Assembly: GCA_020437395.1 (NCBI GenBank)
Contig: JAGQWJ010000012.1
Location: forward strand, 1-64,000
Origin: Ignavibacteriota bacterium
GTDB lineage: Bacteria > Bacteroidota > Ignavibacteria > Kapaibacteriales > UBA2268
DNA: 64,000 nucleotides
Direction of reading: 5' to 3'
Below are positions 1 to 12,123 of this stretch, piece by piece. The position numbers were made by a program, and so were the translations under genes. Position 1 is the first letter of the stretch, and each line of letters begins with the position of its first letter. Below the pieces are notes generated by a model. The model was not told where the DNA came from and made no database searches. It saw nothing but the letters and a program-made list of their open reading frames with translations.

Positions 1-922
1 TTTCTTTCTCTCGACATTCCCCTCCCTTGGAGGGGTGTCCGAAGGACGGGGTGGTCGAATCCCACGGTGCCACATCCCGAAACTCCAGACCAAGTCCCTT
101 TGCTATCTCGCCGACTAGCTTGATATCGAAGTTCGGTTTCCTACCCAATTCCTCTCCTCTGGAGGGGTGTCCAAAGGACGGGCCTGTCCCGCGTTGGGCG
201 GGGGTGGTTAGCTCGCTGCTCTGGTCTAATGTGGCTTGCTCGCCTGCTTCTGGGTAAAGGTAGAGGGGGAAGATACTTTCAGCACCTTGCATACCTGGTC
301 TAGACCAAAATCTTCTATCAATCATCTTATTTGAAATAAAAGTAGGCATAGAATTATCTTCATCAAAACCTCTTTTTGCTATTAATCCTATATTCTGATT
401 TAGCATATGTCTCATTACATTGTATCTACCATTACAAACGAAACCGTTTTGCTTACCAGTATAATATGTTAACCTTAAATCAAATGGTCTGTAATTGATA
501 TTCCTTTGATACTTAACCTCTTTATAGAATGCAATCACATCATTTTTTGCTCTTCCAATTTTCCAGTCTCTAGAATCTTTAGTCTTATATTTTTTTGCTA
601 TTTCAATTTCACTTAATGTGTTAAAATCAAAAAGAACACTTTCTAGTTCTTCTTTTTTGAAATGAATTGTAATACTATCTCTAATTGTTTCAATACCAGC
701 TATATTAACTTTCATAAGATTCTCAATTTTAAATCCTTTGCTATAAGTCTTCTCGGCTTCAAAATCCTTTGGAACAAAGAAATAGTAAGGTTCTTTGTAT
801 TCCAGCTCATTCCATTCGATATTATTAACTGACTTCTCATCCAGAAATTTATATTTTTCATCACGCTTACCGTATAGGTCATAGTGATATATTTGGGCTA
901 GTTTTTTATTTTTTTGTTTCAT
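1..922 (-). CDS. R-M enzyme, C-terminal part (target-recognition side), partial
   Basis: This reading frame is open from an ATG at 922 through base 1 and runs off the left edge, giving at least 307 residues. It reads like the part of a type IIG/ISP-like restriction-modification enzyme that follows the methyltransferase core: KLAQIYHYDLYGKR near the start, NYRPFDLRLTYYTG, then IFPLYLYPE, a run typical of these enzymes before the target-recognition domain. It has no methyltransferase motifs I or IV; those lie in the gene at 2022-3917, which ends where this one should begin. A Shedu-like gene sits between them. Translation as a separate, HsdS-like subunit is possible, and so is a dead fragment. 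Two in-frame palindromic repeats (17-55, 149-210) encode PSFGHPS-containing stretches in the linker after LYPE. Bases 1-260 are clearly more G+C-rich than 260-920. The family is clear; function as a split enzyme is inference. Confidence 0.8.
   Translation of the reverse strand, partial: MKQKNKKLAQIYHYDLYGKRDEKYKFLDEKSVNNIEWNELEYKEPYYFFVPKDFEAEKTYSKGFKIENLMKVNIAGIETIRDSITIHFKKEELESVLFDFNTLSEIEIAKKYKTKDSRDWKIGRAKNDVIAFYKEVKYQRNINYRPFDLRLTYYTGKQNGFVCNGRYNVMRHMLNQNIGLIAKRGFDEDNSMPTFISNKMIDRRFWSRPGMQGAESIFPLYLYPEAGEQATLDQSSELTTPAQRGTGPSFGHPSRGEELGRKPNFDIKLVGEIAKGLGLEFRDVAPWDSTTPSFGHPSKGGECREKE
17..55 (-). repeat. G+C-rich palindromic repeat, copy 1, inside the R-M coding frame
   Basis: A 39-base unit with a short inverted core (cccctccc / ggaggggtgtcc) and a conserved tail ending in ggacggggtggt. 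It closely matches the element at 2547-2586 in the opposite orientation and the core of 149-210. It is read in frame on the minus strand as TTPSFGHPSKGGE within the R-M C-terminal part. No transposase or target duplication is visible. Confidence 0.8.
149..210 (-). repeat. G+C-rich palindromic repeat, copy 2, longer variant
   Basis: Same core as copy 1 (ggaggggtgtcc followed by a ggacggg tail), but about 20 extra bases containing a cccgc/gcggg hairpin interrupt the end before ggtggt. It stays open on the minus strand and encodes TTPAQRGTGPSFGHPSRGEE. It lies in the linker after the LYPE motif of the R-M protein. Confidence 0.75.
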
Positions 923-937
923 AGTTTTAATGTTAGA

Positions 938-2017
938 TTATTTTGTGTGCTCAACAATATATTTAGCTCTTTCAAATAGTTCATCAAAAGTTATAATTTC
1001 TGGATTATTAATGTTTTTTCTGAAAATTTCGAATGAACTATATTTTTCCTGATTAATCTTCTCATTCTTTAAGAACTCAGTAAGGGAGCCAATAATTATA
1101 AATGACTTTGGCTCATTCAAATATAGAAATTCATCTGTTGAATAACCTTCGGAATCTTTCATTTGTGTTTCAGATTTAAGGTTTTCAACTAACTTACGAG
1201 ATGTTTTTTGAATTTGGGCAATGGCATCAGAGAGTTGAGAAGATATTGACCATGAGTCAGGTCTTGGTTCTTTACCCATTAATTTTGTGTCTGGTGTTTT
1301 GAATTCACATAGACAAAGTGAACTTATAATTCCCTTTGTTTTAAGTAATCCATCAACACGTTTTCCTCTACTATTTACATCAAAACCAGAAACAACTTGT
1401 TCTAATTTTTTATTATCTAAAGAATCAGTTGTAATATAATCCAATCCATAACCTAAAATCCATTTATTATCTTCAAAAAAATCTTGCCAATTTTTTTCTA
1501 TAAGTGATGAACTATTGTCAAGCATACTCTTAAACTCAGACAACTTTTCTTTTCTATATTTTAAATTAACTAAGTCTTTTTCACTTAGAACACCTTCTTC
1601 AATAAACTCTTTTAAAAAAGTAATACCCTGTTCACTTTTTAATACAGAATTTAATGCTGTTTTTGATTTCTGATTTATTTCAAAACCATCTATAAGTGCT
1701 ATTTTAGAAGTTGTTAATTCTGATAATTTTAATGATTTAATTAACTCCAAAAACATTTCTAAATGCACTAAATCAAAATTGCTTAATAACAACTCACTAT
1801 CGAAAGAACCATTGTTTAGTTTAGTTATTTTTATTCCATTTAAATCATCTTTTTCGTTCAAATATGTTAATCTTATTGAAATTCTTTCGCTGATTGCAAT
1901 CTCTTTATAATTGTCAAAAGCGATAGATATAAACTTACCTTTATCTTCCTTAAAGTCACTTATATACAACTTATCAGGTGTATAGTTATTTATATAATTA
2001 ATATTACTCTTTCCCAT
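938..2017 (-). CDS. Shedu-like nuclease (DUF4263/SduA C-terminal domain)
   Basis: A 359-residue protein. The C-terminal half matches the Shedu (SduA) nuclease domain: NWQDFFEDNKWILGYG at 176-191, an acidic residue in KRVDGLL (D222), the PD-(D/E)XK half-site CEFKTP (E238, K240), a helix with a conserved Gln (AIAQIQ, 265-270), and a closing strand-helix around SFIIIGS and ITFDEL. Shedu proteins are antiphage defence nucleases whose N-terminal domain varies; residues 1-170 here are that variable part and I do not recognise a fold. The ATG lies 4 bases past the stop of the upstream R-M gene, so translational coupling is likely. The R-M C-terminal part follows 15 bases after its stop. Base composition is more A+T-rich than the upstream R-M part, consistent with separate acquisition. 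Family assignment is fairly sure; activity is not shown. Confidence 0.82.
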   Translation of the reverse strand: MGKSNINYINNYTPDKLYISDFKEDKGKFISIAFDNYKEIAISERISIRLTYLNEKDDLNGIKITKLNNGSFDSELLLSNFDLVHLEMFLELIKSLKLSELTTSKIALIDGFEINQKSKTALNSVLKSEQGITFLKEFIEEGVLSEKDLVNLKYRKEKLSEFKSMLDNSSSLIEKNWQDFFEDNKWILGYGLDYITTDSLDNKKLEQVVSGFDVNSRGKRVDGLLKTKGIISSLCLCEFKTPDTKLMGKEPRPDSWSISSQLSDAIAQIQKTSRKLVENLKSETQMKDSEGYSTDEFLYLNEPKSFIIIGSLTEFLKNEKINQEKYSSFEIFRKNINNPEIITFDELFERAKYIVEHTK

Positions 2018-2021
2018 TATC

Positions 2022-3917
2022 CTACCCCCTCTTCTTCACAAATATATTAATAGATACACCTTGCATTATATCGAATACATTTTCATCTTTGCCACCATCG
2101 GGGGTGGTTTCTTTTTTCTTTGAGTTCCCGTGCAGGTCAAGTATATAGATTTTATCGAATGTTTCTAATAGGTTCTTTCGCATTTGTCTATGAGTGATGC
2201 CGTCTATGAAGCTATTGTTCGAGATATAAGCTAATATTCCTTCGCCATTCTTTTCTATATAGTGTTGCCCATAGCGTATGAATTTTATGTAATCATCATC
2301 TAGATTTAATTTTTTCTCATTCAAATCTTTCTTGTAATCTTTTATCAAATTCTGAATCCATTCGCCTTTGTTGCTACTGCTCACACTATACGGCGGATTA
2401 CCTATTACGCACATGACTGGTACGTCTCGCTTTATTCTGTTCGCTTCGTTGGATTCGGCACTCAGCCATGACGAGAATATAGTCCCAGTGTCTTTGTGGT
2501 GTTCTTCCAGCGAGTTTGTTAGGTACACGTTCAGCCGTTGGTCGCTACCACCCCGTCCTGCGGACACCCCTCCTTTAGTAGGGGAATTTTTGTAGCCAGT
2601 TTCCGCCAGCAGCATAGATAGTTTTAGGTGAGCCATAGCATAAGACGCCATCAGAAGCTCAAATCCATTAAGCCGAGGTATTAGGTGCTCATCAACGTAG
2701 CTACTCCACATTCCTTGCATCTGCTTGAAGTTGGTGTTGTATATGTACTTCACCACTTCCGCAAGGAAAGTTCCCGTACCTGTGGCGGGATCTAGTATTT
2801 GTACTTTATGTACTTCTTGCTCTATTGTTTTTCCTTGTACATCTACTTTGATTTTGGTCTTCGTAGTGTCTGCTAGTCCTTGCGTTAACCCAAATTCCGT
2901 TTTTAGTATATCATCTACTGCACGTACTATGAAGCTAACCACTGGCTCGGGAGTGTACCAAACACCACGTGATTTGCGTAGCTTGGGGTCATATTCCGCA
3001 AGGAAGGTTTCGTAGAAGTGGATAATCGGGTCATTCGTCTGGGTGCTATTACCAAAGTTTTTGAGTAGCTCCTCTACGTTCGTGTGGCGGAACACTTCAG
3101 CCAGGTTCTCTACTGTCGGCTTTATACGCTCGTCTATATCAGGACCAGCCACATATCCGAATAGCTTACGCAAGAACGGATTAGATTTTGGAATTAGCTC
3201 TGCAGCTTCTTGTCTGCTGAAAGTGTCTATAGTATCATCATTCAAACGTGCAGCAAACATGCCGTATGCAAGGGTTTGAGCGTATATATCAGCGAATCCC
3301 TTTGGCTTTAGGTCATGTATTAGTATATCTTTGAATGTTTCGTACTGTGCTTTGAGCGATGTATTCGCTTGTGTTTGCTCATCGGACTCTACGGCTTGTT
3401 CTAATATGTCTTGTAGTAGCCGAGCTTTTGCCGCCATCATAACAGCTAACTTCTTCGATGATTTTATAGTCTGACTAACGAACGTACAGAAGTCCTGAAT
3501 CAGATTTACAAACTTATCAAAGTTCTCTGGCAAAGGTTTTACTTTACCATCTACTATTTCGCCGATTCGTATTTCGTGTACCATCTCTCCATTCTGGAAG
3601 AACTGGAACCACAAGTAATCTGTGATGATTAGATTATCGAGTGCGTTTCTGTATCTACCGAACTGCTCTTTGTATGATTTGGAGTTAAGATCTTTAGCAA
3701 TATCTTTCGCCTCTATGTACCCTATCGGTATTTTACCTTTGGTTATAACATAGTCTGGGTTACCGCAATCGGTTACGTTAGCTGGCTCGTTAGTAATCTC
3801 TACGGTAGTTACCATAGCACGTAGTAGAACTTCTAAATCAGAACGATATGTATGTTCACGAGAAATACCAGAAGCGAATCTCCTCGCAACAGAGTCGATG
3901 TATTGTTGTAAAGTCAT
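2022..3917 (-). CDS. R-M enzyme, N-terminal part: nuclease plus N6-adenine methyltransferase
   Basis: A 631-residue polypeptide. The N-terminal domain carries a PD-(D/E)XK nuclease signature: P54-D55, then 13 residues to E69-A70-K71 (GYIEAKD). A helical region follows, then RKSRGVWYTPEPVVSFIVRA, the standard entry to gamma-class N6-adenine methyltransferases, motif I DPATGTGTF near 375, and catalytic motif IV GNPPY near 507. No helicase domain is present, so this is closer to a single-chain type IIG enzyme than to full type ISP. It stops after NIFVKKRG, exactly where relatives continue into the target-recognition region. That continuation lies beyond the Shedu gene, at 1-922. A palindromic repeat adds about 14 residues (444-457) between motifs I and IV. 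Upstream, 3918-4153 separates it from a divergent gene and would hold its promoter. Confidence 0.88.
   Translation of the reverse strand: MTLQQYIDSVARRFASGISREHTYRSDLEVLLRAMVTTVEITNEPANVTDCGNPDYVITKGKIPIGYIEAKDIAKDLNSKSYKEQFGRYRNALDNLIITDYLWFQFFQNGEMVHEIRIGEIVDGKVKPLPENFDKFVNLIQDFCTFVSQTIKSSKKLAVMMAAKARLLQDILEQAVESDEQTQANTSLKAQYETFKDILIHDLKPKGFADIYAQTLAYGMFAARLNDDTIDTFSRQEAAELIPKSNPFLRKLFGYVAGPDIDERIKPTVENLAEVFRHTNVEELLKNFGNSTQTNDPIIHFYETFLAEYDPKLRKSRGVWYTPEPVVSFIVRAVDDILKTEFGLTQGLADTTKTKIKVDVQGKTIEQEVHKVQILDPATGTGTFLAEVVKYIYNTNFKQMQGMWSSYVDEHLIPRLNGFELLMASYAMAHLKLSMLLAETGYKNSPTKGGVSAGRGGSDQRLNVYLTNSLEEHHKDTGTIFSSWLSAESNEANRIKRDVPVMCVIGNPPYSVSSSNKGEWIQNLIKDYKKDLNEKKLNLDDDYIKFIRYGQHYIEKNGEGILAYISNNSFIDGITHRQMRKNLLETFDKIYILDLHGNSKKKETTPDGGKDENVFDIMQGVSINIFVKKRG
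2547..2586 (+). repeat. G+C-rich palindromic repeat, copy 3, inverted relative to copies 1-2
   Basis: A 40-base copy nearly identical to the reverse complement of 17-55 (ccaccccgtcctgcggacac, then cccctcctttagtagggg). In the minus-strand R-M frame it encodes SPTKGGVSAGRGG, inserted between AETGYKN and SDQRLNVYLTNSLEE. The element is therefore tolerated in frame in both orientations. Confidence 0.8.
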
Positions 3918-4117
3918 AGCAGATTGAATTTCATTTTATTAGTATCCTGTAACGCTAATATAATGCAATTCGCCGAACTATCCTATACTACAAAGTGGGT
4001 ATTTTTTAGGTGGTAGGGGTAAAGATTTTTTCAAGCGCATTTTAGTAACCTTCGGGTAAATTTAACAATTTAATCCGAACTAATTATTAAATTCAACCGT
4101 AATTGTATTATATTTCT

Positions 4118-4125
4118 TAAATTTG
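4118..4125 (+). promoter_or_regulatory. candidate -7 box for the DUF3098-era operon
   Basis: TAAATTTG matches the Bacteroidota -7 consensus TAnnTTTG and lies about 28 bases before the ATG at 4154. The only nearby TTG (4103-4105) is too close to serve as a good -33 box, so this is a weak call. The rest of the 3918-4153 gap is A+T-rich and shows nothing else. Confidence 0.3.
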
Positions 4126-4153
4126 TGTCAAAGAATAAAAAAAAGTGAGAATT

Positions 4154-4435
4154 ATGGCTAAGAAACGAGCAACAAAGAGACAAAATAAAGCAGTTTGGGA
4201 ATTCCCGTTCACTAAGAAAAATTACCTGATAGCAGGAATAGGAGTAGCTACTATAGTAGTTGGCTATTTACTAATGGCAACTGGATTGGGTGGGGACTAT
4301 GCGGCGGTAGATGGCACTTGGAACAATCCAATGGCTATCACTATTGCGCCACTATTGTTAGTCATCGGCTATTGTGCTATTATTCCTTTTGCTATCTTGA
4401 AATATTTCCCTCACAGCGATAAAAACAATGAGTGA
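4154..4435 (+). CDS. DUF3098 small membrane protein
   Basis: A 93-residue protein with a basic N-terminus (MAKKRATKRQ), FTKKNY, then two hydrophobic segments (about 27-46 and 62-83) joined by a loop containing FTK/GGDY-type polar residues. This matches DUF3098, a small family found mainly in Bacteroidota and of unknown function. I chose the ATG at 4154 over an in-frame GTG at 4145, which would add only three residues. The 3' end overlaps the start of era by 8 bases, so the two are co-transcribed. In related genomes DUF3098 genes sit near cell-division or housekeeping genes; a role here cannot be read from the sequence. Confidence 0.75.
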   Translation: MAKKRATKRQNKAVWEFPFTKKNYLIAGIGVATIVVGYLLMATGLGGDYAAVDGTWNNPMAITIAPLLLVIGYCAIIPFAILKYFPHSDKNNE

Positions 4436-5327
4436 TCAAACTCAGAAAGCGGGTTTCGTGGCTATCGTTGGGATGCCCAATTCGGGCAAATCTACGCTAA
4501 TGAACGCGTTGATGGGTGAGAAATTATCAATAGTAACAGCGAAGCCGCAAACTACTAGGAAAAATGTTTCTGCAATTCTCTCGAGCGAAAACTCGCAGAT
4601 TATCTTCCTTGATACTCCGGGCATATTGCGTCCTAGGTACGAAATGCAACGCTCTATGATGAGGTTTTTGAATGAATCGCTCGATGCTGCAGATGTAATC
4701 AGCGTAATTTGGAACTTAGAAAAAGACGGTGACAATACGGACTTACTGTCAACGAAGTTTGAGTTTTTAAAAAATTACAAAGCCCCAAAAGTGCTTATTC
4801 TGAATAAAATAGACACTTATAAGGATGCTAAAGGGGTGCTACCAGTAATAGCAAAGTTTCAGGAGTTGGAGATATTTGCTGATATAATCCCAATTTCGGC
4901 ACTCAAAGCAGCAAACACCGATGCACTGATTAGAATATTCGAAAGTCATCTACCAGAATCAGATTTCTACTACCCAACTGATATTATAAGTACACTCAAC
5001 GAGCGATTTTTCGTAAGTGAGCTAATTCGCGAGAAAATCTTCGAACAGCTAAAAGAAGAGCTGCCCTATTCCACAGAAGTGACTATTACTCAATTCAAAG
5101 AGAGAGAAGCCGGCAAATGGTTCATTTCAGCTGATATAATAGTTGAGAAAGACAGCCAAAAGGGTATAATGATAGGTAAAGGCGGTACTATGCTGAAACG
5201 CATAGGAGCTATGGCAAGAAAAGACATAGAAGCTCATCTACAGATGCCTGTATTCCTCGAGCTATTTGTGAAAGTCAGAGATAATTGGCGCGAAAAACCA
5301 AATATGCTCCGCTCATTGGGTTATTAG
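4428..5327 (+). CDS. era: GTPase Era
   Basis: A 299-residue GTPase that binds 16S rRNA and assists 30S ribosomal subunit assembly. Visible motifs are G1 GMPNSGKST (residues 15-23), G2 region QTTRKN, G3 DTPGI, G4 NKID, G5 SAL, and a C-terminal KH RNA-binding domain with GKGGTMLKRIG. Length and domain order are those of standard Era. The switch region has QTTRKN where many Era proteins have QTTRHR, a mild variation. It overlaps the DUF3098 gene by 8 bases. It converges on hrcA, with only 6 bases between the two stops and no clear terminator. Confidence 0.95.
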   Translation: MSDQTQKAGFVAIVGMPNSGKSTLMNALMGEKLSIVTAKPQTTRKNVSAILSSENSQIIFLDTPGILRPRYEMQRSMMRFLNESLDAADVISVIWNLEKDGDNTDLLSTKFEFLKNYKAPKVLILNKIDTYKDAKGVLPVIAKFQELEIFADIIPISALKAANTDALIRIFESHLPESDFYYPTDIISTLNERFFVSELIREKIFEQLKEELPYSTEVTITQFKEREAGKWFISADIIVEKDSQKGIMIGKGGTMLKRIGAMARKDIEAHLQMPVFLELFVKVRDNWREKPNMLRSLGY

Positions 5328-5333
5328 AAGGGA

Positions 5334-6392
5334 TTAGTTCTTTTTCCCAGAGAGAAGCTCAGAGACTATTTTTACTAACGGTAGCATCTTATTGTACTGC
5401 ATTCGCTTTGGGCCAATCAGACCTATTGCCCCGGAACCACTGTCAGCTAAGTTATAATTAGAGACTATCATACTGTAGTCACTAAGCTGCTTATCACCAA
5501 TTTCAGAACCAATATAAACTTGCATATCATTTTGCTCTGGCATATTGTCAAGCAAATGGATAATTATATCTTCATTTTCAACTAATTCTATAATGCTTTT
5601 AACACGTGCAATGTCTTCGAATTCGGGCAGTTCCAACAAATTTTGTGTCCCAGAAGTAAAGAGCTTATTGTTCACTGATTTTAAGTTAAAAATCTTATCT
5701 ACTGAATCTACGAAGAGGCGTATGAGCGGCTTTTCTGACAATTCTATATCTGTCATTATCTCTGGGAAGGAAGTCTTTAGGTCATTGATATTTCTGCCAA
5801 CTATTCGCTCATTAATGGCTCTTGCTATTTGCTCCAAATGCCCATCCTCTACCTCAAATCGAGCTTCCAAAGTAACCGTATTTACGATGTTTGACTCCAA
5901 AGCGAGAACTACCAATATGTGAGTTGAAGAAAGTTTGATAAGCTCTAACTTTCTTACTTTTATCTCTTTGACGGTAGGAATTCTAACTACTGCCAAATAT
6001 TTCGATAATATACCTAATAATTTTGATGTTTCTTTTAGAATAGAATCTGAATCTTTGCCATCGTCTGCAATAGAATTAATAACTTGTTGCTCTTGTTCCG
6101 AAATTTTTTCCATTTGCATAAGGTAATCAACATAGAACCTATAACCTTTGTCAGTGGGTATTCGCCCAGCGGACGTATGGGGGTGGGTTACTAGCTCCAT
6201 TTCCTCCAAATCGACCATAACGTTGCGAATAGTAGCAGGACTAATACTTAGATTGTGCTTTATAAACTTTGATAATTTACGTGAACCTACTGGAGAAGCA
6301 TTTGCTATGTATAGATTGACGATGGAGCGAAGAATTGCCCTCTCTCGTTCGTTCAATTTCAGATCTATATTATTGATTGAATTCTTAATCAT
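5334..6392 (-). CDS. hrcA: heat-inducible transcription repressor HrcA
   Basis: A 352-residue HrcA. It has the N-terminal winged helix (LNERERAILRSIVNLYI, ASPVGSRKLSK, SISPATIRNVMVDLEEMELV), the signature THPHTSAGRIPTDKGYR, and the long GAF-like C-terminal domain ending in GPKRMQY. HrcA represses chaperone genes by binding CIRCE operators. The gene stands alone here, without grpE, dnaK, dnaJ or groESL. I see no CIRCE element (TTAGCACTC-N9-GAGTGCTAA) in the 200-base gap to the divergent typA, so autoregulation is not evident. A TATATTTG box (minus strand, 6464-6471) could be its -7 element. Identification is firm; its regulon lies elsewhere. Confidence 0.95.
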   Translation of the reverse strand: MIKNSINNIDLKLNERERAILRSIVNLYIANASPVGSRKLSKFIKHNLSISPATIRNVMVDLEEMELVTHPHTSAGRIPTDKGYRFYVDYLMQMEKISEQEQQVINSIADDGKDSDSILKETSKLLGILSKYLAVVRIPTVKEIKVRKLELIKLSSTHILVVLALESNIVNTVTLEARFEVEDGHLEQIARAINERIVGRNINDLKTSFPEIMTDIELSEKPLIRLFVDSVDKIFNLKSVNNKLFTSGTQNLLELPEFEDIARVKSIIELVENEDIIIHLLDNMPEQNDMQVYIGSEIGDKQLSDYSMIVSNYNLADSGSGAIGLIGPKRMQYNKMLPLVKIVSELLSGKKN

Positions 6393-8471: not shown

Positions 8472-10451
8472 CTAACCAATGATATTTTTGAAATCTGCGA
8501 AATTCAACTTATCTGCTAAGCCGATTGCAGCTTTCTTATAGCTTGCAGACATTTCCGGGTCATTTACTTCGACCACTTTTGATATATTAGTAATTGTTAG
8601 CAGTTTTAATTCTACGGGCAATTTCATCGACATTCGAGCTGCCAATCGCAATTTTTCTATAGCCTGAACTGTTCTTCCTTGTTCCGCATCGAGCAATGCA
8701 GTCGTATTCAAGATGAAACACTCTGCCTGGGCGTTCGGTTTCTCTTTCACTAATTGTGACGCCTCATTAATCATATTCTCCGCAGTCGTGTAATCATTTA
8801 GACTAATATAGCTTTTTGCAATCATAGATAGCAACTGTACTTTTTCAATCAACCTCAACCTATTAATATTGCTATGATATAGGTTTTCCGCCTTGCTGAT
8901 AGCATTCTCATATCTTGAAGCAAACATATCATCAAGAACCTCGTTTCTGGCTAGCACAAAATCAAATTCTTCGCTCAGATTTCCTACTACAATAGTTCCG
9001 CTAATATTTTCATCTTCGCTGTTACCGTTACCATTGTTTCCTCCTGACCCGTTTTTGTCGTTTTCTTCACCGTTAGTCCCTACTTCTGGGTTATATTGAT
9101 TAGCATATTCACTACTGATTCTTATCATTTGCTCAGACAATTCATCATTCTCGGCTTCCTTGCTGTGTGCAGCCAAATAAGGTGCTATTTGTTCCCTTTC
9201 GTCATCATCTGCGTTGTCATAAAGCTCTTTGAGCTCTTTGGAGACTATGCCGTGAAGAGCTATTTTCTCCTCATATTCAAGCCCACTATGAAAATATTCG
9301 TAGTAAAAAGCTTGTGTGAATTGATAAATGGTTGTCTTGACTCCATAGCGTAAATTAGCACCTATACTTCTAATAACCGTTGATTTCTGTGTTATCGTAC
9401 GTAGTCTTTGTATCACATCTACTACGTCAGTATTGAGCAGTTTACTCATCATATATGCAGAAAACTCACGACCCTCTGCACTACAAATAGCCAGTAAGTT
9501 CTTGTCGATATCACTAAGATCATTGATGTTTTCTGCCAAAGCGGCACTAGCGGTAACAGGCATGTGCACGTCATTAAGATTCAGAGTCAGCTCACCTGCT
9601 TCGTTGAACGGTGGATGTTTCTCAAAATAGTGCAAATATTCGTTGAGTATGCCAGGATTACCAAAGCTTTTTTCCATAACCCAACTAATAAATTCCTCGT
9701 TATCTTTGTAGTTGCTTAGGTTTGCTCGAAAGTAACTCTCAGTCTCTTTACTTTCCAGATTTTTCAATCTTATTCTTTTGATATCATGATTTTCGGTGAC
9801 TATCAATGGAAACAGTGGTATTGAAGGGTCAGAAAAATCCGATCTTCTATATGAAAAAACAAACAAAATTGCTTGGTTGCCATCTGCAAACCTTCGTATC
9901 ATCTCTACAGATGATGCATCAGCCCACTGCATATCGTCAACCATAAGCACCAGAGGTGATTTGTGAGCAAAGCTACAAAATGCGTTATAAAACTCATCTA
10001 TAGCACTCACTTTATCATCTGTCTTTTCTTGGCTCGATTCTTTTTTGTAGTCCTTCCAATCTTTGCTTATTTCCTTAACAGCGTAGAAAATTTCACCAGT
10101 TAATGGAAGCGATGCAAGTATAGAAATCCCTAATCTCTTTTTGAACCTCTCCTTCGCAGATTTATAATTACCCTCTAGCAAATTGTCCATAGCGGTAGAA
10201 AATGGCTTTAATTGCTGCAAATTTCCAACATTGAAATTACCAATTGGTGATTCGTTTTCTATCATCAACGAAATCACTCCATCGTCTTTCCTCGCAAGCT
10301 TCATCATCTCAGTCATTAAAAATGATTTACCTGAACCGCCCTCGCCTTCTATTGCGATTACACTACCACGACCATTTTTAAGATCTTTTAGTTTTTGTTG
10401 AAATAGCTCGATTTCGGAATCTATCCCAATTGGGAAATAGTTGTTTTCCAT
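8472..10451 (-). CDS. STAND-like AAA ATPase with C-terminal TPR region
   Basis: A 659-residue cytoplasmic protein. Walker A is GEGGSGKS at 36-43, and Walker B is LVLMVDDMQWADASS near 165-180; DDxQWAD is the hallmark of AAA_16/STAND signalling ATPases such as the MalT and adenylate-cyclase-linked families. A helical arm follows, then a Gly/Asn/Glu low-complexity linker near 450-475 (NGSGGNNGNGNSEDEN), then helix pairs that read as TPR-like repeats to the end. No effector domain (nuclease, TIR, protease, cyclase or DNA-binding) is visible, so the output is unknown. It is monocistronic, with a 157-base gap before the next gene. It could be a signalling scaffold or part of a defence response; only the ATPase architecture is supported. 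Confidence 0.8.
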   Translation of the reverse strand: MENNYFPIGIDSEIELFQQKLKDLKNGRGSVIAIEGEGGSGKSFLMTEMMKLARKDDGVISLMIENESPIGNFNVGNLQQLKPFSTAMDNLLEGNYKSAKERFKKRLGISILASLPLTGEIFYAVKEISKDWKDYKKESSQEKTDDKVSAIDEFYNAFCSFAHKSPLVLMVDDMQWADASSVEMIRRFADGNQAILFVFSYRRSDFSDPSIPLFPLIVTENHDIKRIRLKNLESKETESYFRANLSNYKDNEEFISWVMEKSFGNPGILNEYLHYFEKHPPFNEAGELTLNLNDVHMPVTASAALAENINDLSDIDKNLLAICSAEGREFSAYMMSKLLNTDVVDVIQRLRTITQKSTVIRSIGANLRYGVKTTIYQFTQAFYYEYFHSGLEYEEKIALHGIVSKELKELYDNADDDEREQIAPYLAAHSKEAENDELSEQMIRISSEYANQYNPEVGTNGEENDKNGSGGNNGNGNSEDENISGTIVVGNLSEEFDFVLARNEVLDDMFASRYENAISKAENLYHSNINRLRLIEKVQLLSMIAKSYISLNDYTTAENMINEASQLVKEKPNAQAECFILNTTALLDAEQGRTVQAIEKLRLAARMSMKLPVELKLLTITNISKVVEVNDPEMSASYKKAAIGLADKLNFADFKNIIG

Positions 10452-10608
10452 TACAATTTCTAATTATTTTTTATTCTTGTAACTAATATACAAAAACTGT
10501 TCCGAATATTGATTTCAGTAGTGATTATTTTATTCGTTTATTGATTTTGTTAGACTTTTGAGACGTATGCAATACGACTCTAATTTTTTTGTGCATCGGT
10601 ATTAACTA

Positions 10609-12123
10609 TTACTCGCCAACTACGAATTTCTTCGAATATTTCTTATCGCCAACATTAATATTCAGTAGATATGTTCCGAAAGGTCTTTTTCCGATGCTCA
10701 ATTCATATTTTTGCGAGTTATGTAGCCCTTTGTGTAGTGTCGTTAATGAATTTCCTGATAGGTCGAATAGTTCGATTGACAACTGCTCACCTATTGGTGA
10801 ATAAAGCTCTAAATTAATTTTGCCATCTTTAGTTGGGTTCGGATATACAGAGATTGGGCTTTCTTCTTCGGCTACTTCTACGCTAGTCAATCTATCTTTA
10901 AAAAAAGTTTCGTTTTCAATTAATTCAGCTTCTATTTTTTTTCTAGTATCCTCGTCCATATTTGGATAATCCTCATTCGGAGGCGTCATATTTATCTGAA
11001 TAACGAAACTAGCTGATTGATTAGCGGGTAATACAAATGGTATAGTAGGCATAAAGAATCTTTGATCTGTTTTTTGGGTTAGATTTTCGCTCCATGATAA
11101 AAAAGAACTCCAATATTCTATGTAATCATATTCATTTGGCAATTGTCTATACCCAAGAACTTGTAATTCTCGGCTGAATTCATAATTAAAGTCTATCAAG
11201 CCCCCTTGTGCAAGAGGCGTTTGTAGCCATTTGAAACTGATGTAACCAAACTCTTCGCCCTCTTCATATTCTTCCATCTCTGTTGCAAAAGAGACATACG
11301 AACTATCTTCTGGAAAGAGAATTATATCATTATCAATTCCAGTGAATGCATTTGTTATTTTTGTTATATCTATATCAAAGACAGGTGCAAAAGAAAGCTT
11401 TTTGAAATCATTTGCAGTATTATTGGTAATCACCCAATTGATAAAAACTACATTTTTTTGTACTACATTATCATAACTGTATACTCGTGTTTCCGCTTCA
11501 ATACCGACAGGTAATATTCGATTGTTATATATCTCAGAAATCGGATTCACATTCGTATCTGTGTCTTTGTAAATTGCAACTAAGTCCTCATCAGACTTGA
11601 ATAGTGGTTTACTTAGTGAGCGCGTTCTTTCAGATTCATATACTTTGTAATCGCCATAGTATGAACCGAGGTAATCACCGTCAGTCCATATAGGCCATCT
11701 AGGGGAATCTTTATTAGACAAATCCTGACCCGAATATTTGTCATAGCTATTAGAACTATATACTCTGTTTTTACTTGCATTGCTGGTATCTAATAATTTA
11801 CCATCAGAAACAGCACCAGGTACGAACCAACTATTTGCGTCCATAAAATTGTATGAATATTCGGGGAGATGAGATGTTTCCCCCGCCGCAAATTGCTCAC
11901 GAAGTAATATAAACCCACCGCCATATAAGTACTGTGCGTTTGAGCCGCGAGGCCAAATAAAACCCGATTTCTTAGTTACTGGGTTGTGGCCTACTATGCC
12001 GTTATTGGTTATAGTAAGCTCTATATTGCCTTTTGTGGATGTTACTGAGTGATTAACTGGAATCTGAGGAAAAACAGCCGAGAGCGCTGCTAAAAAGGCT
12101 AATAAGTATATCGTAGCTTTCAT
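10609..12123 (-). CDS. secreted protein with T9SS type A sorting domain
   Basis: A 504-residue protein starting MKATIYLLAFLAALSAVFPQ, a signal peptide. The chosen ATG overlaps the queE stop (TAATG); a start 27 bases upstream would put nine polar residues before the signal peptide. The body is beta-rich with aromatic and acidic residues, and I do not recognise a catalytic domain. The C-terminal ~80 residues are a T9SS type A sorting domain: SVYPNPTKDGKINLEL, ELFDLSGN, FGTYLLNINVGDKKYSKKFVV. It is therefore exported across the outer membrane by the Por system and probably surface-attached or released. Co-transcription with queE looks like read-through coupling and not a shared function. Confidence 0.85.
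   Translation of the reverse strand: MKATIYLLAFLAALSAVFPQIPVNHSVTSTKGNIELTITNNGIVGHNPVTKKSGFIWPRGSNAQYLYGGGFILLREQFAAGETSHLPEYSYNFMDANSWFVPGAVSDGKLLDTSNASKNRVYSSNSYDKYSGQDLSNKDSPRWPIWTDGDYLGSYYGDYKVYESERTRSLSKPLFKSDEDLVAIYKDTDTNVNPISEIYNNRILPVGIEAETRVYSYDNVVQKNVVFINWVITNNTANDFKKLSFAPVFDIDITKITNAFTGIDNDIILFPEDSSYVSFATEMEEYEEGEEFGYISFKWLQTPLAQGGLIDFNYEFSRELQVLGYRQLPNEYDYIEYWSSFLSWSENLTQKTDQRFFMPTIPFVLPANQSASFVIQINMTPPNEDYPNMDEDTRKKIEAELIENETFFKDRLTSVEVAEEESPISVYPNPTKDGKINLELYSPIGEQLSIELFDLSGNSLTTLHKGLHNSQKYELSIGKRPFGTYLLNINVGDKKYSKKFVVGE

Follow-up and report, generated by a model that had tools for sequence, protein, structure and literature searches.

Organization of the three-gene locus

The window (the whole 64,000-nt stretch analysed, from contig JAGQWJ010000012.1 of the Ignavibacteriota bacterium assembly GCA_020437395.1) begins with a restriction-modification (R-M) gene that is divided by another gene. 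Three complete or open ORFs adjoin on the minus strand, encoding a nuclease-methyltransferase (RM) half, the Shedu protein SduA, and a recognition (S) half (Table 1). The ORF calls agree with the first-pass annotation on the length and NIFVKKRG terminus of the RM half and on the intervening gaps of 4 and 15 bases.

Table 1. Features of the split type IIG locus, in window coordinates unless a second contig (C77) is named.
Feature	Position	Strand	Basis
RM half (PD-(D/E)xK nuclease + N6-adenine methyltransferase), 631 aa, ends NIFVKKRG	2022-3917	-	ORF and profile searches
Junction, RM stop to Shedu start, 4 bases	2018-2021	-	Linker position matches 13 other cargo-bearing loci
Cargo gene SduA (Shedu, DUF4263), 359 aa, catalytic D222/E238/K240 intact	938-2017	-	Profile searches and motifs
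Junction, Shedu stop to S-part start, 15 bases	923-937	-	ORF positions
S half (Type_ISP_C), cut by contig end	1-922	-	Profile search
S half, conserved head	757-922	-	Comparison with L008
S half, variable TRD	about 258-757	-	Comparison with L008
S half, hinge with in-frame palindromic repeats	1-257	-	
S conserved end domain	C77:10954-11522		Continuation of S half on second contig
Palindromic repeat units in S-part hinge, in frame (FGHPSRGE / FGHPSKGG)	27-185		
Inverted copy of hinge palindromic repeat, in frame within RM half (SPTKGGVSAGRGG)	2547-2573		

The RM half matches the N6_Mtase/Eco57I profile and the PADLOC family REase_MTase_IIG (2.9e-242), and the solved structures that it matches best are LlaBIII, DrdV, and LlaGI. 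Its motifs are intact, namely the PDY...IEAK nuclease motif (residues 53-72), DPATGTGTFL (376), and NPPY (507). Nuclease and N6-adenine methyltransferase motifs thus share one chain as in type IIG/ISP enzymes, but the target recognition domain (TRD; Type_ISP_C, 2.5e-24) is not fused to the methyltransferase and is separated from it by a stop codon and an ATG of its own, likewise in all cargo-bearing loci described below. We therefore file the locus as a split type IIG/ISP variant. The middle gene matches Pfam SduA_C (2.3e-31) and PADLOC SduA (7.7e-95), its product matches solved Shedu proteins, and the D...ExK catalytic residues of its DUF4263/SduA_C domain are invariant across seven homologues, bearing out its earlier assignment as a whole Shedu-like gene; an AlphaFold model of SduA was too poor for use (pLDDT 52).

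Both enzyme halves contain in-frame insertions of palindromic repeats, at window positions 27-60, 155-185, and 2547-2573 (SPPLEGCPKDG / FGHPSRGE). Other in-frame repeats lie at the hinge between TRD and end domain in the S parts of four relatives (L075, L048, L151, and L168; e.g. KDEMLRYAQHDKKDAQHD in L075), which suggests that this hinge tolerates repeat insertions generally.

Position 1 of the window is the first base of its contig (C33), and the recognition part is truncated there by the assembly. The remainder of the S gene lies on C77, whose sequence overlaps the first 33 bp of C33 exactly; across this overlap, the reading frame stays open for 496 aa. A tyrosine-integrase element on C77 (11523-18957; L088), encoding an integrase, a BT4734-like/DUF3987 protein, an HNH protein, and an AAA_15 ATPase, adjoins the TRD/end-domain hinge of S at the 33-bp sequence common to C33:1-33. 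The S gene of this genome may thus be disrupted by the integrative element, whether in every cell or only in some, and the element may carry defence genes of its own. Directly after the S gene on C77 lies a DUF559 gene (10412-10957), and a similar sequence is fused in frame within the RM half of another split locus, L171.

Recurrence of the split and its cargo

Most of the approximately 110 close relatives of the RM half are single chains of about 1,060 residues, in which the recognition part follows in frame. Among the 80 close relatives obtained by scanning genome contigs, 11 have an RM half that stops at the same place (NIFVKK..), and in 10 of these a gap of 480-1,275 bases precedes the recognition part, while the eleventh (L073) leaves its contig inside the cargo gene. 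Two further split loci, L151 and L171, were added by searching genomes of the window's own family. Including the window, 14 cargo-bearing loci are split at the same methyltransferase/TRD linker, each with one gene on the same strand in the gap, and in 11 of them the cargo gene starts at most 4 nt from the RM stop or overlaps it. These loci span Ignavibacteriota, Bacteroidota, Delongbacteria, and UBP11; several of them, L171 among them, are from metagenome bins.

The cargo consists of a YhcG/DUF1016 nuclease in nine loci (truncated in L171), an IS200/RAYT transposase in two (L048 and L050), and a DinD-like Bro-N protein, a membrane protein, and Shedu in one each. PADLOC defence or defence-candidate families account for 11 of the 14 tenants (YhcG, PDC-S02; Bro-N, PDC-S13; SduA). 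The eight YhcG tenants that were compared fall into four groups that are only about 30-45% identical to one another, indicating that YhcG was acquired more than once. Apart from two weak matches to IS200-type (Y1) transposases several kb away, the flanks of the other 69 of the 80 loci contain none of these cargo families. The slot of L008 (9862-10815) holds a 317-residue membrane protein with two hydrophobic segments, which has no Pfam family above the cut-off and no PADLOC or NCBIfam family; it is a candidate new defence gene.

Since varied and mostly defence-type genes occupy the same gap in at least 13 other genomes, the linker resembles a reusable plug-in site rather than the scar of a broken gene. 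The first-pass annotation had proposed looking for the same gene order elsewhere, and the junction recurs with other cargo in 13 further loci, but the commonest tenant is YhcG, and Shedu was found at the junction in no other genome among 395 of the phylum or 54 of the family. It had also reckoned that intact single-chain relatives free of Shedu, together with the absence of the junction from other genomes and of methylation from this one, would point to a broken gene; such relatives do exist, but the junction is not confined to this genome.

A plug-in site could also result from hitch-hiking alone, if a split in the linker were simply tolerated, so that any gene landing there survives and profits from a self-maintaining R-M unit with no joint function. 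The transposase tenants, which need not help the host, are in keeping with this, as is the more distant L168, which is split at the same linker with no cargo and whose gap consists solely of an 86-nt spacer containing a palindromic repeat. However, genes landing neutrally would not be biased towards the defence and defence-candidate families that make up most of the tenants, and we regard this explanation as unlikely.

We also considered whether the split form resides on phages or plasmids and rejected this: phages yielded distant matches only, both viral contigs found (L160 and L161) carry single-chain genes, and the plasmid match H2 is annotated as a pair of overlapping genes whose break lies elsewhere.

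Origin of the split and exchange of modules

A single origin of the split was rejected on both trees that we examined. On the maximum-likelihood tree of 110 RM halves, the split label requires nine changes, at least seven of which are forced by well-supported branches, and on the tree of the conserved S end domain it requires six, with at least four forced. This scatter implies that the split arose or spread repeatedly at one place. A near empty-site comparison is provided by the unsplit L080 and the YhcG-bearing L069, which share 91.5% identity as far as the final codons ahead of the junction and align once more in the S head.

The closest split relative of the window is L008, whose RM half is 94% identical at the amino acid level. 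Homology between the two extends to the last RM codons, is interrupted by unrelated cargo, and resumes four codons into S. Within S, the TRD is only 38% identical (aa), compared with 92% for the head of about 50 residues and 93% for the end domain. A conserved head between differing cargo and differing TRD indicates that these are two separate variable modules. The earlier idea of a swapped-in recognition module plus Shedu thus holds insofar as both differ from L008, but the two did not form one module. The same applies to base composition: the low GC content noted for Shedu (26.6%) and the TRD (29.6%) was confirmed, against 41.6% in the RM half, but it does not indicate a joint swap, as the unrelated cargo (25.9%) and TRD (29.6%) of L008 are equally A+T-rich. 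Upstream of the unit, window positions 3,964-6,000 have no homology in L008, so the unit occupies a different genomic site there.

Exact sequence copies flank a spare cargo gene in L171: downstream of the unit is a complete YhcG gene with a 52-bp copy of the RM end on one side and a 106-bp copy of the S end on the other. These copies are likely a recombination scar, a reading to be taken with caution because the contig comes from a fragmented genome. The RM half of L171 also contains an in-frame DUF559-like nuclease domain which, like a duplicated segment of the S end domain, is flanked by palindromic repeats (1807-2775 and 4695-5477).

Cargo and TRD would accordingly be exchanged separately, by homologous recombination through the conserved flanks formed by the RM end, the S head, and the S end. 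On balance, we lean towards the broader reading that the linker joining methyltransferase and TRD in type IIG enzymes acts generally as a slot driven by recombination, with repeated independent splits, interchangeable defence genes, and independent swapping of cargo and TRD; the same reading would give type IIG enzymes both the subunit freedom and the gene-embedding of type I loci.

Selection on the halves and a possible mode of action

Both enzyme halves are under strong purifying selection: between the window and L008, two split loci with unrelated cargo, omega is 0.033 for the RM half, 0.10 for the S head, and 0.059 for the S end, at dS values of about 0.4-0.7. A dead enzyme is hard to reconcile with this, provided that the common ancestor of the two loci was already split, as both are. 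If insertion of Shedu had destroyed the R-M gene and left its halves to decay, an S gene cut at a contig end beside an integrase element and the existence of intact single-chain relatives lacking Shedu would be expected observations, but motifs and frames are intact, both halves show low omega (0.03-0.10), and the S gene of a close split relative is full-length. Such decay is therefore very improbable. The first-pass annotation had weighed two working chains with a gene translated between them against an enzyme broken by Shedu; its preference for the former is strengthened by the 14-locus junction, the varied cargo, the purifying selection, and the intact L008.

Reassembly of the RM and S halves is plausible. 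The split point maps to about residue 1148 of LlaBIII, upstream of its TRD core, which begins at residue 1205 (PMC4872093). Structure prediction gives the L008 S part a stand-alone fold (pLDDT 79, pTM 0.79) matching the TRD end of DrdV, LlaGI, and LlaBIII, and natural RM + S enzymes exist among type IIB (PMC11997821).

We consider it likely, on the strength of these sequence comparisons, that the locus encodes a type IIG enzyme working as two chains (RM + S), and that its linker serves as a swappable cargo slot through homologous recombination. An ISP-type enzyme would have become two-chain by a split between its methyltransferase and TRD domains, and the linker would then have become a recurrent slot for a single accessory gene on the same strand, in most cases encoding a PD-(D/E)xK nuclease (YhcG or, in this locus, Shedu). 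We infer translational coupling, enzyme activity, and an antiphage function: the three genes probably form one transcription and translation unit, and the RM + S complex would methylate and cut at a site set by the TRD. Shedu is a DNA-end-sensing nuclease (PMC12904381), and in the simplest model SduA would provide an independent second layer of defence, directed against the ends of linear phage DNA not stopped by restriction. The single occurrence of Shedu in the slot and the S gene cut at a contig end beside an integrase element count against the two-chain, cargo-slot explanation, as do the transposase tenants and the origin of several loci from metagenome bins.

A PrrC-like guard unit is also possible, in which the RM + S complex silences the embedded nuclease until phage inhibition or evasion of restriction releases it. 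PrrC, which is always hsd-linked, is kept silent by its type Ic R-M partner until an anti-restriction peptide of the phage activates it (PMC3874168). A guard would explain why a nuclease is co-produced between two enzyme halves, and the strict co-orientation and close spacing would fix the stoichiometry. In contrast, the tenants have unrelated folds (nuclease, Bro-N, membrane protein, transposase) with no obvious common part for binding the R-M enzyme, Shedu elsewhere acts as a single-gene system (PMC12904381), and a conserved enzyme whose cargo is swapped speaks against a specific partnership. We thus judge a guard improbable and retain independent second-layer defence as the working model for SduA.

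Comparison with known systems

In the literature consulted, embedding of defence genes is described for multi-gene loci. DarTG2 is embedded in type I R-M loci between hsdS and hsdR (PMC12255303), TgvAB is embedded in the type I R-M locus of Vibrio cholerae (PMC11411939), and the PADLOC PDC families derive from gene-embedding ("guilt-by-embedding") (PMC12988326). With these and PrrC, the present locus shares a same-strand defence gene among R-M genes and an overlapping cargo repertoire (YhcG, Bro-N, SduA, RAYT), and with a gene between the parts of another defence system in 14 loci from several genomes, 11 of them holding a PADLOC defence or candidate family, it qualifies as an embedded defence locus. 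Type I loci are multi-gene from the start, however, whereas here a gene that normally encodes a single chain is itself split, at one linker and in several phyla. Our literature search returned no earlier report of a split type IIG enzyme with cargo, although an account in a preprint on embedded defences (bioRxiv 2024.01.29.577857) is possible.

Single-chain type IIG/ISP enzymes (PADLOC PDLC03610, DrdV, LlaGI, and LlaBIII) resemble the locus in domain order, in close identity, and in the match of S to their TRD end, but consist of one chain, and LlaGI and LlaBIII additionally contain an ATPase domain that is absent here. Type IIB enzymes such as BcgI and BsaXI likewise combine an RM fusion subunit with a separate S subunit, but BsaXI-type S subunits have two TRDs with conserved regions, whereas the S half has a single Type_ISP_C region, with a predicted fold (from the L008 homologue) that matches the TRD end of DrdV and LlaGI, and a cargo gene intervenes. 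The recurrent split shows how RM + S enzymes can evolve from single-chain ones. It also marks a natural point at which type IIG enzymes could be divided to make their recognition subunits exchangeable, and the slot is a new place to seek undiscovered defence genes, the L008 membrane protein, which matches no family, being a candidate.

Shedu, to which the cargo gene belongs by its SduA_C domain, intact catalytic residues, and PADLOC family, is known as a separate single-gene system. Here it lies inside an R-M gene and has an N-terminal region in common with relatives from type I surroundings, which occur in the arrangements hsdM-hsdS-SduA-RAYT-hsdR (L157) and SduA-GmrSD-hsdR (L156). With SduA kin in or beside type I R-M loci, the type IIG slot thus draws on the set of genes that also occupies type I loci. 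RAYT-like transposase genes likewise occur in both settings, beside SduA in the type I locus (L157, 4461-5096) and in the type IIG slot (L048, 9640-10299).
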